Assembly (NCBI GenBank): GCA_017409345.1
Contig: JAFQSX010000016.1
Coordinates: 1-39,543, forward strand
Length of the DNA: 39,543 bases
From: Muribaculaceae bacterium
GTDB lineage: Bacteria > Bacteroidota > Bacteroidia > Bacteroidales > Muribaculaceae
Direction: 5' to 3'
The position numbers and the translations under genes were made by a program. Of this stretch, positions 3,241 to 8,794 are shown piece after piece (the stretch's first letter is position 1; the number at the start of each line of letters is the position of its first letter). The notes under the pieces are model-generated. The model did no database searches, was not told the origin of the DNA, and saw nothing but the letters and a program-made list of their open reading frames with translations.

Positions 3241-4665
3241 TTAAAGAGTCTTGGTGTGTGTAACACATTCTGGCACTTCGGGTAGATAGTGAGTCACATA
3301 TATTAATGTGATTTTATCGCGAGCCACAAGATGATTGATTATGCCACGAATACTACGTTTGCGAGCAGTATCAAGACCATGTAGAGGTTCATCAAGAATG
3401 AGCAACTGAGGATGTTTGATGAACGTGCGAGCAAGTAGCACTAATCGTTGTTCCCCGGCTGACAAAGAATTAAAACGACGATCGGCAAGATGTTCTATAT
3501 GTAGTAGTTGCAGCCAATGCATGGCACGCTCCATTTGTTGAGGCTTTACTTGGCAGAATAATCCGACAGTGTCGTTTAATCCTTGTGCCACAATAGTTTT
3601 GATGTCTCCACTACCATTGAAATAGAGGTGCATCTCGGGCGAGATATAACCGATGCGACGTTTAATTTCCCAAATGCTTTCGCCACTGCCACGACGGCGG
3701 TCAAAGAGGGTGATGTCATTGGAATATCCTTGAGGATTGTCGGCATGAACAAGACTTAATAGTGTGGATTTACCCGACCCATTAGGCCCGAATAGAGCCC
3801 AACATTCGCCATTGCGTATTGTCCACGACACATCTTCGATAATAGTGCGTGCTCCATATTTCACCTTGCAATGGTTGAGAGCGAGCACCACATCGGTTTC
3901 CTCGGCATTGTATTCTCGATCGGGTCGAGAGGGGAGATTGTCAAGGTCAATGGCATAGTCAAAAAGATAGTAGAACGACTGTTGAAATTGTTTTATTTCT
4001 CGTCCTTGTCGCATCACAGCCTCTTTTATCTCCATATTGAGCATTGGAATAACGCAATCAATGCATGGGGGCAAGTCAACAGGATTGCAAAGTAATAAAA
4101 TGACCGATACTCCTTGATTGGCGATTTGTAATATTGTGTCGTTGAGAATCTCGCGCGATGCTGCATCAAGACCGATATATGGATTGTCGAGAATCAACAC
4201 ATCGGGCAAGTCAAACAATAGGTTTACGATAAGCAACTTGCGTGTTTCACCACTTGAGAGGAAATTGATATGTTTAGTTGCGATGTCGTTGAGGCGTAGT
4301 TGTGTAGCCAACTCATTCCAACGATTAGAACCTATGCGATCGTGAAAGATTTCGGCAACCGTAGGCACCTCGTCATTCATCATCGATTCAAAGCGTTGTT
4401 GATAATACTCCACCTTAAATCCGGCAAGAGAATGAATGTCGGCAAACTCGATTTTCTTGATATTCAATCGTTCGCGATAGCCCTCAATGCGGTTAGTGCA
4501 GAAGTTCCAACCCTTTTCAATGATATTGCCAAGCATTGTCTTGCCCGCACCATTAGGCCCCATAATAGCAGTAACACCACGAGGAATTGTCACATGATTA
4601 GGGTTAAGAATCTTCGCTTCACGATAACGGAGAAAATCACTTTTGAGTTTTATCAAGAAATCCAT
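3241..4665 (-). CDS. Double ABC ATPase, ModF-like
   Basis: The 474-aa protein has two ABC ATPase domains in one chain and no membrane segment, like ModF/PhrA-type proteins. Domain 1: Walker A GPNGAGKT (36-43), signature LSSGE (136-140), Walker B VLILDN (156-161). Domain 2: GPNGSGKS (293-300), LSAGEQR (401-407), LLILDEP (421-427), H-switch YVTHYL (457-462). In domain 1 the catalytic Glu after Walker B is Asn161, and the H-loop position reads LLCNP without His. This suggests an asymmetric pair in which composite sites differ in hydrolysis. No permease or molybdate-binding gene is adjacent, so a transport role is not supported here; some soluble double ABC proteins act on ribosomes or in stress responses instead. 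A TAACTTTG box lies only 4 nt before the ATG, implying a nearly leaderless mRNA. Confidence 0.88.
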   Translation of the reverse strand: MDFLIKLKSDFLRYREAKILNPNHVTIPRGVTAIMGPNGAGKTMLGNIIEKGWNFCTNRIEGYRERLNIKKIEFADIHSLAGFKVEYYQQRFESMMNDEVPTVAEIFHDRIGSNRWNELATQLRLNDIATKHINFLSSGETRKLLIVNLLFDLPDVLILDNPYIGLDAASREILNDTILQIANQGVSVILLLCNPVDLPPCIDCVIPMLNMEIKEAVMRQGREIKQFQQSFYYLFDYAIDLDNLPSRPDREYNAEETDVVLALNHCKVKYGARTIIEDVSWTIRNGECWALFGPNGSGKSTLLSLVHADNPQGYSNDITLFDRRRGSGESIWEIKRRIGYISPEMHLYFNGSGDIKTIVAQGLNDTVGLFCQVKPQQMERAMHWLQLLHIEHLADRRFNSLSAGEQRLVLLARTFIKHPQLLILDEPLHGLDTARKRSIRGIINHLVARDKITLIYVTHYLPEVPECVTHTKTL

Positions 4666-4782: not shown

Positions 4783-4842
4783 TTCCTTTGAAGTGTAAAA
4801 TTGCATTAATCTCGTCATATTTTGACGAGATTAGCTTGTTTT
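4783..4842. repeat. Fic-flanking repeat, left copy, with perfect 11-bp inverted repeat
   Basis: The copy starts with TTCCTTTGAAGT (4783-4794) and contains the perfect inverted repeat TAATCTCGTCA (4807-4817) / TGACGAGATTA (4823-4833) with a 5-bp spacer, then a T-rich tail. A related copy lies after the fic gene at 6006-6064. Here the palindrome lies between two divergent genes and abuts the -33 region of the fic promoter, so it is well placed to be an operator. Confidence 0.8.
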
Positions 4843-4865
4843 TTCGCGTCATTGTGTTATCTTTG
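4836..4865 (+). promoter_or_regulatory. Promoter of the fic gene
   Basis: TTG (4836-4838), a 19-bp spacer, then TATCTTTG (4858-4865) matches the Bacteroidota -33/-7 pattern. The predicted start of transcription is about 10-15 nt before the ATG at 4882. The right arm of the 11-bp inverted repeat ends 2 bp upstream of the -33 element. Confidence 0.75.
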
Positions 4866-4881
4866 TGGCAAAATTTGTGTT

Positions 4882-5991
4882 ATGAGAGCAATATATATAT
4901 GGCAACAGGCATCATGGCCTAAGTTTACTTGGGATAACTCTCGGTTGATAACCTTGCTTTCGGAAGTGCGAAATCTTGAAGGTAGGGTGTATGGGTTGAT
5001 GAGTGGATTGGGATTGGAACTTCAAAATCGCACTTCACTTGATGTGATGACGCAAGATGTGTTGCGTTCGTGTGAGATTGAGGGGGAATTACTCAATCCC
5101 GACCGTGTGCGTTCATCTATTGCTCGTCACCTTGGTATAGAGGTGGAGGGATTGCCCGAGCCTGACCATTATACAGAAGGGCTGGTGCAAGTAATGCTTG
5201 ATGCAGTGAGAAATAAAGATGTGCCATTGACACACGACAGATTATTTAATTGGCATGCAGCATTGTTCCCAACCGGACGTAGTGGGATCTATCCTATAAC
5301 AGTAGCCTCTTATCGAGTAGGCAAAGAGCCGATGCAAGTAGTATCGGGAGCAATGGGCAAAGAACGAGTGCATTATGAGGCTCCTTCTTCAGAGTTGGTG
5401 CAAGATATGATGAATGAATTGTTGCAGTGGATTAATAATTGTAATGATGTAGATCCGGTCATAAAGGCGGCAATCGCTCATTTATGGTTTGTTGCCATAC
5501 ACCCATTTGATGACGGAAACGGTCGATTGACTCGAACAATAACCGATATGTTATTAGCTCGAGCCGATGGCATGTCGCATAGATATTATAGCATGTCGGC
5601 TGAGATTATGCGAGAACGAAAAGCTTATTATGAGGTGCTTGAAAAGACAACAACCGGAGGTGTGGATATAACGCTATGGCTTGAATGGTTTTTGCTGACT
5701 CTTCGCAGTGCAATATTGCGTTCTGAAACAATGATAAAACGAGTTGTTAAGAAGTCGATGTTTTGGCAAGAAAATAGAGATGTCGCGATGAATGAGCGTC
5801 AAGTAAAGGTGGTTAATAAGTTGTGGGATGGATTTGAGGGCAAACTCACAACCTCAAAATGGGCTAAAATTACTAAGACATCTCAGGCCACGGCATTGAG
5901 AGATATTAATGATCTGATTGAAAAGGGAATATTAATCGCTTCTGATGAAGGCGGGCGTAGCATGCACTATCTTTTAAAAGAGGAATGTTAA
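4882..5991 (+). CDS. Fic family protein (DUF4172 N-terminus, C-terminal winged helix)
   Basis: Fic enzymes usually transfer AMP from ATP to a hydroxyl side chain of a target protein. From the ATG at 4882 the product is 369 aa (MRAIYIWQQ...), the usual start for DUF4172-Fic proteins. A TTG-initiated form beginning at 4822 would lie upstream of the promoter and is unlikely. Residues 63-68, SCEIEG, match the inhibitory motif [S/T]xxxE[G/N] that blocks the ATP site in class II Fic proteins. The catalytic loop is a canonical HPFDDGNGRLTR starting at His207. Residues about 300-369 (KLTTSKWAKI...SQATALRDINDLIEKGIL) form a winged helix, suggesting DNA binding or autoregulation. No antitoxin gene is adjacent, consistent with inhibition in cis. 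The gene is bracketed by related palindromic repeats (4783-4842 and 6006-6064). Confidence 0.92.
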   Translation: MRAIYIWQQASWPKFTWDNSRLITLLSEVRNLEGRVYGLMSGLGLELQNRTSLDVMTQDVLRSCEIEGELLNPDRVRSSIARHLGIEVEGLPEPDHYTEGLVQVMLDAVRNKDVPLTHDRLFNWHAALFPTGRSGIYPITVASYRVGKEPMQVVSGAMGKERVHYEAPSSELVQDMMNELLQWINNCNDVDPVIKAAIAHLWFVAIHPFDDGNGRLTRTITDMLLARADGMSHRYYSMSAEIMRERKAYYEVLEKTTTGGVDITLWLEWFLLTLRSAILRSETMIKRVVKKSMFWQENRDVAMNERQVKVVNKLWDGFEGKLTTSKWAKITKTSQATALRDINDLIEKGILIASDEGGRSMHYLLKEEC

Positions 5992-6149: not shown

Positions 6150-7016
6150 TTATACTGCTGCGATGATGGCGAAGGAGAGGCTATAGGCGGCCATTGCCAT
6201 GGCGGTCATGCCGAGGAGTGGGTTGAGGCGAGCACCGGTGCGAATGCCGAGTTGCCACCATATTGCAGTGTGGGCTATAAGATATAAAATGGGAATTGCC
6301 CATGCCCATATAGGCATGCTCATCCATGTAACACCCATCAATGCAACTGCAATATAGCCATTAAAAAGATATAAGTTTGATACAGCACTACGACCAAAGA
6401 TTACAGCAAGTGTGCGTTTGCCCACCTCTTTATCGTCATCATGATCTCGGTAATTGTTTACTATCAACACGTTGGTCCCCATCAATCCTATGGATATAGA
6501 TGCGAGTAACACGTCGAGGCTCCATTGGAGCGACTGCACGTAGTAGGTGAGTGTAACCGGTATGATACCGAAGAAAAACAGCACAGCCACTTCGCCCAAT
6601 CCGTGATGAGATAGGGGGTAAGGCCCGGTACTATATGCCATCACGCCGAGAGCGATAAAGATGCCAATGGGTAATAACCACCACCCACCATAATAGATGA
6701 GAGAACAGCCTATCACACAAGCCAATGCCAATGTGCCGAAAGTCGCAAATTTCATGGCTTGTGGGGTAATGTCCCCCTCGGTTACACCACGACGAGGGCC
6801 CTCACGACCTTTACGGTCGAGCCCCGATTTAAAATCGTAATATTCGTTGGCAAAGTTTGACGCAATCTGAGCCAATAGCGCAAATAGCAGACATAAAATA
6901 GCCGGTATGAGATTAAATTTATCATAAAGAAAGCAAAATCCCCATGCCATAATCACTCCGGCGAGCGACACAGGCAGGGTGCGTAGGCGCATTGCTTCAA
7001 TCCAACATTTTATCAT
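6150..7016 (-). CDS. menA: 1,4-dihydroxy-2-naphthoate polyprenyltransferase
   Basis: MenA attaches a polyprenyl chain to 1,4-dihydroxy-2-naphthoate at the inner membrane, the penultimate step of menaquinone synthesis. The 288-aa product is a UbiA-superfamily membrane protein with about eight to nine transmembrane helices. The first Mg-diphosphate motif reads NFANEYYDFKSGLD (54-67), followed by the MenA-typical basic loop RKGREGPRRGV. The second reads NNYRDHDDDKEVGKRTLAV (about residues 187-205). The ATG overlaps the stop of the upstream ATPase-DUF4435 gene by 4 bp (ATGA), so the genes are translationally coupled. No other men genes are in the window. Confidence 0.95.
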   Translation of the reverse strand: MIKCWIEAMRLRTLPVSLAGVIMAWGFCFLYDKFNLIPAILCLLFALLAQIASNFANEYYDFKSGLDRKGREGPRRGVTEGDITPQAMKFATFGTLALACVIGCSLIYYGGWWLLPIGIFIALGVMAYSTGPYPLSHHGLGEVAVLFFFGIIPVTLTYYVQSLQWSLDVLLASISIGLMGTNVLIVNNYRDHDDDKEVGKRTLAVIFGRSAVSNLYLFNGYIAVALMGVTWMSMPIWAWAIPILYLIAHTAIWWQLGIRTGARLNPLLGMTAMAMAAYSLSFAIIAAV

Positions 7017-8647
7017 TTTTGGGTGTCGGTTTTAGTGGCTTGTTGAGCCTCAATTTTTAATGAATTAAGATTGTTGTCGTCAAGTCCAAAACATTTTATT
7101 ACAGCATTACGAATGCGTTGAGCATCTTTCCCGTTTTGCTTTAGTATTTTTATGATTGTGTGGATATAAGCATCTTTGTTGGCGAGCCCACAAAGTCCAC
7201 TCACATTGCTTGATGGAATCATTGACTTGCGATTAAACACGCGCAACACATTTTGGTAGTCGCCGATTGCTACATAGCCATGGAATTCACGGCAAAAAGC
7301 CTCATACATGCCACGAGGATTAATCTCTTTTACCAAGTCATTGATGTGGTCTTCAAGCGAATTTATGTTGTTAAATCGACCATCAACACGATATTCAAGA
7401 GTGCGTTTCACTCGGTGGCGAGTGTGCATCAATGCTTGTTGGCGCACCTCTTGTTTGAATAGATCGAGAATCGTGGCTTTCACTTTTGCAAAAACCTTGT
7501 TTTCATCTTTGCGATGTCGCGAAGCAACAGTGCGTATAACCTCTTCGAGCATCAAGATATTTTCAATCTCGGCAACGTTGGGTACGAGAATTTTCTTGGT
7601 GCGCAGATATTTCACCTCTCCATCATCGCGGCGATCGCGATCTACGATACCGTAACTGTCCATGTGATGAAAAGTGGTGAGGTCATTAAATGCGCGAGTG
7701 GCTTCAATTACTTTGTTGCAACTTCCAAGAGGTTTTACAGTATATTGAGGGAATATTAGAGGATAAAGTTTGGAATCAATTGAATGTACACCATCCCCCT
7801 CGATAAAAAGCACCGGCTTGCGAGCGCCGATGATAGTGAGGTATATGTCGTCAGATAGTTCGGCATGGTCGGGGAGTATATCATAATCCCATGTATTGGC
7901 CACGGCATCATATTCTCGCACCCATATAACAGTGTTGTCAGTGCGTGATGAAGCAAAGTCTATGTCGTGAGTAGTGTATATAAACGTACAATCGGGACGT
8001 AATTGCTCAATGCGATCCCATAGCGATTTTGTGATAGACTGATGTAAGAAGATGCCGGGATTGTCAATAAATATAACAGCATCTTTCATAGCCATTAATG
8101 CTGCTCCTACATAATACATTACAGCACGCTCGCCGGTCGATAACTTCATGGAAGAATAACTTTGTTTATCTCCTTCGCGTGAAATTAGCATTTTCCCCCC
8201 TTCAATGAGAATCTTGCTTCCGGGAAAAACTTCTTGCCACACATCAATAACTTTATCGAGTTTAGTAGAAGGCAGTTTGGCATTGGGATTATCCGAGAGC
8301 ATCATCTTGTAAGCGATAAGATTAACAATCTCTTCTTGAAAAAGGATTGACATCAAACGCTCCGCTTGAGAAACATTCTCATTTCTTAATATGCTTGTGC
8401 GTTCCGAAGTCTCCTTGTATAACATATCGATAGATCCTGGCAATGAATCTATTTCGCGTGATTCATATAAAGCAGAAATAATTGACATGCGGAAGGCTCT
8501 TCCTTGCATATTATTTATGAGCCAATCGGTAAAGCGAGTTTTCCCGGCTCCGTTGGCACCAATGATAGTGATCTGTCTATTGCCTGACGATATTTCTTGA
8601 CTGGTGTTGTCTTTCTTGGGAGGGAGCAATATATTCATATATTCCAC
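7013..8647 (-). CDS. ABC-type ATPase fused to DUF4435 (Toprim-like); PARIS AriAB-like
   Basis: This 544-aa protein joins an SMC/OLD-type ATPase to a DUF4435 domain. ATPase: Walker A GANGAGKT (30-37), signature KLSTGERA (168-175), Walker B VIFIDNP (191-197, with Asn in place of the usual Glu), H-switch TTHD (225-228). The second half shows Toprim-like acidic positions: Glu283 in VLFIEGD (279-285), DRD (336-338) and EIEN (360-363), then a helical tail. AAA_15 ATPase plus DUF4435 nuclease is the composition of the PARIS anti-phage system (AriA and AriB), which also occurs as single-chain fusions. That known composition supports a defence hypothesis. The 4-bp overlap with menA and the lack of mobile-element signs argue instead for a lineage-conserved gene. 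Confidence in the domains is high; function is open. Confidence 0.85.
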   Translation of the reverse strand: MEYMNILLPPKKDNTSQEISSGNRQITIIGANGAGKTRFTDWLINNMQGRAFRMSIISALYESREIDSLPGSIDMLYKETSERTSILRNENVSQAERLMSILFQEEIVNLIAYKMMLSDNPNAKLPSTKLDKVIDVWQEVFPGSKILIEGGKMLISREGDKQSYSSMKLSTGERAVMYYVGAALMAMKDAVIFIDNPGIFLHQSITKSLWDRIEQLRPDCTFIYTTHDIDFASSRTDNTVIWVREYDAVANTWDYDILPDHAELSDDIYLTIIGARKPVLFIEGDGVHSIDSKLYPLIFPQYTVKPLGSCNKVIEATRAFNDLTTFHHMDSYGIVDRDRRDDGEVKYLRTKKILVPNVAEIENILMLEEVIRTVASRHRKDENKVFAKVKATILDLFKQEVRQQALMHTRHRVKRTLEYRVDGRFNNINSLEDHINDLVKEINPRGMYEAFCREFHGYVAIGDYQNVLRVFNRKSMIPSSNVSGLCGLANKDAYIHTIIKILKQNGKDAQRIRNAVIKCFGLDDNNLNSLKIEAQQATKTDTQK

Positions 8648-8666: not shown

Positions 8667-8674
8667 CAAAATTA
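8667..8674 (-). promoter_or_regulatory. -7 box for the ATPase-DUF4435/menA operon
   Basis: The minus strand reads TAATTTTG, matching TAnnTTTG, about 20 nt before the ATG at 8647. No good -33 element is seen at the expected distance. The 8648-8851 gap separates two divergent transcription units. Confidence 0.5.
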
Positions 8675-8732: not shown

Positions 8733-8762
8733 TTAGTCCATTTTAGTCCATTTTAGTCCTTT
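8733..8762. repeat. Three 10-bp direct repeats (TTAGTCCATT)
   Basis: TTAGTCCATT occurs at 8733-8742 and 8743-8752 and a variant, TTAGTCCTTT, at 8753-8762. The 10-bp period places the units on the same face of the helix, a pattern used by regulators that bind as head-to-tail oligomers. The array ends 32 bp before the -33 element of the downstream lipoprotein gene, so it could be its activator site. It could also serve the divergent menA operon. Confidence 0.65.
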
Positions 8763-8794
8763 TTGATTTTTGGTTGGATAAATTTTATTCAAGG

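Follow-up and report, generated by a model that had tools for sequence, protein, structure and literature searches.

A vertically inherited AriAB-like ATPase-Toprim gene with a degenerate Walker B motif in the Muribaculaceae and related families

Results and Discussion

The gene and its product

The DNA that we analysed, called the window here, is a stretch of 39,543 nucleotides from a Muribaculaceae bacterium (assembly GCA_017409345.1, contig JAFQSX010000016.1). An initial annotation had described in it a 544-amino acid chain resembling a fused PARIS defence protein, with the motifs GANGAGKT, LSTGERA, IFIDNP, TTHD, FIEGD, DRD and EIEN. We found that chain as an open reading frame with a GTG start at 7013..8647, with all seven motifs in its translation, on the minus strand. 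Most orthologues align from codon 4, which is an ATG (8638), and for this reason we consider 8638 the likelier start. We call this gene and its close orthologues the core gene, as distinct from the sporadic fusions of the same kind found elsewhere. The features are as follows, where core rows are those of the core gene in the active-site alignment described below.

7013..8638, minus strand: core AriAB-like gene, 541 amino acids (544 with the upstream GTG at 8647 as start)
7904..8638, minus strand: AriA-type ABC ATPase domain, residues 1-245
8537..8560, minus strand: Walker A GANGAGKT at residues 27-34, with Lys33 the same in 94/94 core rows
8057..8074, minus strand: degenerate Walker B, IFIDNP, residues 189-194; Asn193 in place of the catalytic Glu
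7553..7822, minus strand: Toprim part of DUF4435, residues 273-362; E280, D333, D335, E357 and E359 invariant in 94/94 core rows
7016..7552, minus strand: C-terminal helical part; core-specific residues H405, H431 and F452 in 94/94 core rows, R407 and H408 in 92/94
6150..7016, minus strand: menA, the downstream gene, which shares the four bases ATGA with the core gene

Judged by its sequence, the core protein is an AriA-type ABC ATPase fused to a predicted AriB/DUF4435 Toprim nuclease, so that an ABC ATPase and a Toprim domain stand in one chain, a feature of the OLD family. It matches the PADLOC AriAB model at 2.6e-106 and DUF4435 (PF14491) at 1.3e-26, and its nuclease domain also matches PDLC02983 (4.2e-22). 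In a fold comparison of the ATPase half with VIA-align, the top rows, which span residues 1-273, are AriA. When the C-terminal half was run as a profile query against the PDB, AriB was not among the results. The suggested resemblance to a PARIS fusion is borne out by the PADLOC and DUF4435 matches, which place AriA and AriB homology in the one chain. The downstream gene is identified as menA by TIGR00751 (156.8 bits, cut-off 102.15), and the 4-bp overlap noted earlier is exact. Near full-length orthologues at 39-87% identity occur in the own family and seven other families, and together with a dN/dS of about 0.035 they confirm that the core gene is real and no chance ORF.

Upstream of the core gene, at positions 8733-8764, a 10-bp unit (TTAGTCCATT) occurs as three copies in tandem, and TAATTTTG is found at 8667-8674 on the minus strand; either could be there by chance. 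We take the latter to fit the Bacteroidetes -7 consensus.

Distribution and descent

In a search of 61 genomes near that of the window, 34 of the 37 own-family genomes had a near full-length copy, two had none and one had a fragment. A larger set of 226 family genomes (completeness filter 90, with the own genome, 75% complete, included) gave matches in 204 and matches at E<=1e-100 in 200; the four sub-threshold matches, three weak and one at 1.9e-55, are weak or non-core, and 26/226 genomes are without a strong core match. Order-wide, copies better than 1e-100 were found in 22/295 genomes, belonging to f1, f3, f22, f28, f60, f88, f105 and f109 (f-numbers denote the bacterial families in the sample, and f1 is the own family, Muribaculaceae). 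Presence was 4/4 genomes in f28, 4/4 in f60 and 1/3 in f3. In f105, which is probably the Tannerellaceae, judging from a GT39-like neighbour common with Parabacteroides distasonis, 31/58 genomes have a copy (30 near full length, one partial) and 27/58 have no match at 1e-40, with 19 of these 27 falling in two genera. Because a strong match is missing from those 26 family genomes, and any match from those 27 f105 genomes, the core gene is dispensable. The P. distasonis orthologue is WP_005857298.1 (41.7%). A draw from the phylum gave AriAB-model matches at 1e-15 or better in 11/395 genomes, the own genome included (10 besides), and the model had no match at 1e-50 in 14 named control genomes, which included Bacteroides ihuae. 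In 46/46 core members the AriAB profile was matched over its full length. Two genomes, G006 and G140, have both a sporadic fusion and the core gene.

In a tree of 60 rows (51 core, 9 sporadic; here and in the counts the split pair L051 and weak ABC matches are excluded), the core clade has support of 100/100 and each family with at least 2 core rows forms one group, with support of 100/100 except for f60, where it is weak (89/75). The family labels require 16 changes on this tree, which is the minimum possible. The sporadic fusions cluster across lineages, with those of another order (L065), f105 (L109), the own genus (L130) and f97 (L050) grouped together.

We compared the core gene with rpoB using quick trees of 28 genomes (30 were chosen; G123, with no rpoB match, and G003, with a partial rpoB, were excluded). 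The two genes have 11/25 splits in common, against a mean of 0.23 and a maximum of 3 after shuffling, and their distances correlate with a Mantel r of 0.84. The other 14/25 core-gene splits differ from rpoB, and among 13 well-supported core-gene splits, one, inside the own genus, conflicts with a supported rpoB split. Its rate of evolution is about 7 times that of rpoB. The tree of the core gene broadly tracks that of rpoB, and its inheritance is vertical. On the family-wise tree, the presence in 200/226 genomes and the agreement with rpoB, we rejected a mobile defence gene for the window copy. Of the readings in the initial annotation, a mobile toxin-sensor gene finds no support, and the other one, a domesticated defence gene or a housekeeping branch, is favoured by the vertical inheritance and by how nearly universal the gene is in its family.

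Matches in viral and plasmid collections

Two IMG/VR contigs, L208 and L209, gave 52% matches. We considered them as phage carriers of the gene. L209 we take as host DNA because it has biotin-synthesis-like and TrmE/MnmE-like ORFs, by eye; judging from its ORF table, L208 appears to be that stretch again. They suggest that the viral collection includes host DNA. A third viral match (L210, 31%) was counted as sporadic. In the phage collection the sole match was Oenococcus phi9805, at 25%, in two records.

One P. distasonis copy is on a record labelled as a plasmid (L211, NZ_OY725834.1), which we take as chromosomal because uvrA and nhaA adjoin the gene and the 219-kb record is typed non-mobilizable. 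This "plasmid 89", which also has tldD-like genes, looks like a mislabelled piece of chromosome. The other 51 plasmid records match the C-terminal half at 24-38% identity and are scattered over phyla.

Genomic neighbourhoods

The recurrent neighbours in 33 core regions, window included, comprise among others menA and, by eye, riboflavin synthase, nitroreductase, PurM-like, CPBP-like, agmatine deiminase-like and GT39-like genes; many further neighbours do not recur. The core neighbours that can be recognised by eye or annotation are mostly metabolic. Among the products encoded around the core gene in the window are a ksgA-type methylase, MgtE, an M28 peptidase and a POT transporter. Core neighbourhoods outside the window were judged by eye, and defence models were applied to ten window genes, which gave one match, a SoFic-like Fic gene beyond menA.

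The sporadic relatives have restriction, transposase or integrase genes in 4 of the 8 neighbourhoods listed; the genes of five of these were scanned, with L106, L108 and L130 outside the scan. The sporadic fusion of L110 (931-10420) and a YhcG-type nuclease gene both lie between the HsdS and HsdR genes of a type I restriction operon, a setting that fits PARIS as a guard of restriction systems. Two others (L104 and L107) adjoin transposases, one (L105) is three ORFs from an integrase, and one (L109) overlaps an AlbA_2 gene. A mobile or defence-island setting and a patchy distribution are typical of PARIS, if not strictly defining, and neither was found for the core gene in the neighbourhoods and genomes examined.

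Active sites and selection

We aligned the active sites of 106 rows, 94 core and 12 sporadic (the duplicates L144 and L146 are excluded from the Walker B table). Lys33 of Walker A, Ser167, Glu170, Lys471, E280, D333, D335 and E359 are invariant across all 106 rows, and His224 is present in 91/94 core rows. ABC ATPases use the Walker B Glu as their general base. The initial annotation read the ATPase as complete, but in the window this Glu is Asn (IDNP), which aligns opposite the glutamate of D-E-P in ABCA3.

The catalytic Glu is missing from 87/94 core rows. It is found in 12/12 sporadic rows and in 7/7 rows of f28, f105 and f3, the earlier-branching core families, and in none of the 75 own-family-like rows or the 12 rows of f22, f60, f88 and f109. 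All 12 sporadic rows have DE as the Walker B pair, as do f28 and f3; the pair is EE in f105, and ED or QD in f22, f60, f88 and f109. In the 75 f1-like rows it mostly starts with D and ends in S, N or D, rarely in A, H or T, and a few rows have ED, ES, EN or NS. An Asp at the catalytic place, present in 14/74 own-family rows and 12/12 rows of f22, f60, f88 and f109, may leave some ATPase activity. Along the core lineage the pair appears to have changed from DE to ED to D[S/N/D], an order that comes from the tree; a single loss of the Glu is not rejected (p-AU 0.19), and the best tree has two changes. From this one residue we infer a probable loss of ATP hydrolysis in the core lineage, and if the protein acts as one chain or as a homo-oligomer, no intact hydrolysis site would remain. 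We take E393 of AriA to be the Walker B catalytic Glu position. A PDB entry exists whose title names an AriA E393Q mutant. Since it stands on a single vertical lineage, the series DE, ED and D[S/N/D] offers a ready set for probing what ATP hydrolysis does in PARIS.

The dN/dS value for the whole core gene is a rough one, since it comes from five close relatives (9/10 pairs usable) with dS near saturation. By part, and equally rough, it is 0.017 for the Toprim part, 0.028 for the C-terminal part and 0.052 for the ATPase in the same number of relatives (5, 7 and 8 of 10 pairs usable, respectively, with undefined-dS pairs excluded from the medians). In 9 of the same 10 pairs the dN of menA is higher than that of the core gene, and in one it is lower. 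The majority fraction is 0.56 in the ATPase part versus 0.80 in the Toprim part. R336, P353, H405, H431 and F452 are fixed in 94/94 core rows and common to at most 2/12 sporadic rows. As far as the alignment goes, the nuclease site and a clade-specific residue set are frozen, and the putative nucleotide-binding residues are kept.

Interpretation

We lean towards the view that a PARIS-derived AriA-AriB fusion became a vertically inherited core gene encoding a regulated host RNase with an ATP-binding switch. The fusion would have been fixed in the ancestry of several Bacteroidales families. Its ABC domain would bind ATP and serve as a slow or binding-only switch, not as a hydrolysing trigger; it would restrain the fused Toprim nuclease and permit its action on a fixed substrate of the cell, most probably RNA. 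We name RNA as the likeliest substrate class because AriB is a tRNase. The output would be a regulated host RNase and not an abortive-infection toxin. Vertical descent, genomic setting and the freezing of the sites favour host RNA control over immunity, although the homology and the dispensability of the gene (26/226 family genomes, 27/58 f105 genomes) also fit a defence gene. That a relative of an anti-phage suicide system appears to have become an inherited part of the genome, with a changed ATPase site beside an unchanged nuclease site, suggests a settled duty inside the gut-bacterial cell.

A rather less probable reading, though one to be taken seriously, is vertically inherited innate immunity, with a chromosomally fixed PARIS-type phage sensor and abortive tRNase in which the altered ATPase reflects a different trigger mode. 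The full-length AriAB match in every core member examined, the AriA rows at the top of the fold comparison, the intact nuclease site and a gene that is dispensable and missing from some genera, with no convincing remnant beside menA, are all as this reading would have them. It sits poorly with the mostly metabolic neighbours, a tree close to that of rpoB, a dN/dS that is low in the sensor part too (0.052) and the loss of a Glu that 12/12 sampled sporadic fusions keep.

The initial annotation also raised a link to quinone synthesis. A same-strand menA lies directly downstream in 45/92 core loci, including 12/12 loci of f28, f60, f88 and f109, 33/74 of f1 and 0/6 of f22, f105 and f3; in f1 it is unlinked in 41/74 loci, two of which have one gene between. 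In 24 of the 26 family genomes without a strong core match we checked for menA, and 23 retain it; beside menA in family genomes that lack the core gene, we found no convincing core-gene remnant. Because the linkage is partial and menA is retained without the core gene, we regard menA as a long-standing operon neighbour to which the gene has no obligate functional tie. The initial annotation had named universal conservation with menA across the Bacteroidales, under vertical inheritance, as grounds against its defence reading; of this, the vertical inheritance held and the universal link did not. A component of a menaquinone operon would be expected to show constant linkage and co-occurrence with menA, which is not what these loci show. 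It is therefore improbable that the gene serves menaquinone synthesis or respiration as a regulator or accessory factor, translationally coupled to menA, as the 4-bp overlap in the window and the linkage in four families might suggest; the 41 unlinked own-family loci, the six loci without a link in f22, f105 and f3, and menA kept in 23/24 genomes all argue against it.

Still more improbable is a decaying relic with a dead ATPase, since purifying selection (dN/dS ~0.035) already largely refutes drift, the frames are open in the sampled rows and the Walker A Lys and every one of the Toprim acids are unchanged in 94/94 core rows, against which stand the Walker B degeneration, the lower conservation of the ATPase part (0.56 vs 0.80) and the 26/226 family genomes without a strong match.

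Relation to known systems

The core protein resembles PARIS in having an AriA-like ABC ATPase followed by a DUF4435/AriB Toprim nuclease with acidic residues (E...DxD...E), and in its PADLOC AriAB match. It differs in being vertically inherited and near-universal in its family, with mostly metabolic neighbours, and in combining the lack of the catalytic Walker B Glu with clade-specific frozen nuclease residues; all sampled sporadic fusions have the canonical DE, where the window has IDNP. PARIS itself responds to phage anti-restriction proteins such as Ocr, cuts host tRNA and arrests growth. Because neither the canonical Walker B (DE) nor the setting of PARIS was found, we would not class the core gene as a PARIS defence system, though by homology it belongs to the AriAB family.

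RNase M5, a Toprim rRNA maturase, illustrates that Toprim RNases can be housekeeping enzymes. To our knowledge RNase M5 is without an ABC ATPase domain. In a study of PARIS, AriB cleaves tRNAs while its E26A mutant does not, and the AriB active site is reported to resemble that of RNase M5 (Belukhina 2025, PMC12409363).

In the work of Rousset (2022, PMC9122126), PARIS fusions were detected with profile score cut-offs of 80 (AAA_15+DUF4435) and 20 (AAA_21+DUF4435), and core genes may have been counted as PARIS under those cut-offs. As a warning, a PADLOC-type AriAB model also matches the core gene across a large gut family.

The nearest precedent that we found for a vertically inherited non-defence OLD-type protein is Cran1, an archaeal OLD-family ATPase/nickase of the Sulfolobales. 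It follows the species tree, is reported as non-antiviral with a role in the cell cycle, and is reported to be undeletable and active as an ATPase and DNA nickase (PMC12796447). The likeness lies in the OLD-type ATPase-Toprim architecture and the vertical inheritance, and Cran1 is to that extent a precedent for domestication; the core gene differs in being bacterial, dispensable and AriAB-like, with a degenerate Walker B.

More tentatively than the regulated host RNase itself, we propose that a phage-defence toxin system was domesticated in bacteria into a housekeeping enzyme of RNA processing or translation control, in which stepwise loss of hydrolysis would have turned the fused sensor of the core lineage into a gate, worked by ATP binding, for a Toprim RNase whose cellular substrate is fixed. 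It would be a bacterial counterpart of Cran1 that arose along another path, and it would probably give rise to false PARIS calls in Bacteroidales. The presence of a sporadic PARIS fusion and a core relative in one genome (G006, G140) makes the domestication of a toxin-sensor directly testable. In searches of the open literature, with subscription papers outside their scope and absence therefore unproven, we recognised no paper that describes the core gene.

Other genes in the window

The Fic-family gene (4822-5991, plus strand; DUF4172 and Fic, PADLOC SoFic 1.3e-44) is convergent with menA. It is a candidate defence or AMPylation gene and is missing from some of the relatives compared for synteny. 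At 3241-4665 on the minus strand there is a double ABC ATPase gene similar to ModF, which scores 351 bits where the family cut-off is 459, and its cluster recurs in the regions of a few relatives.
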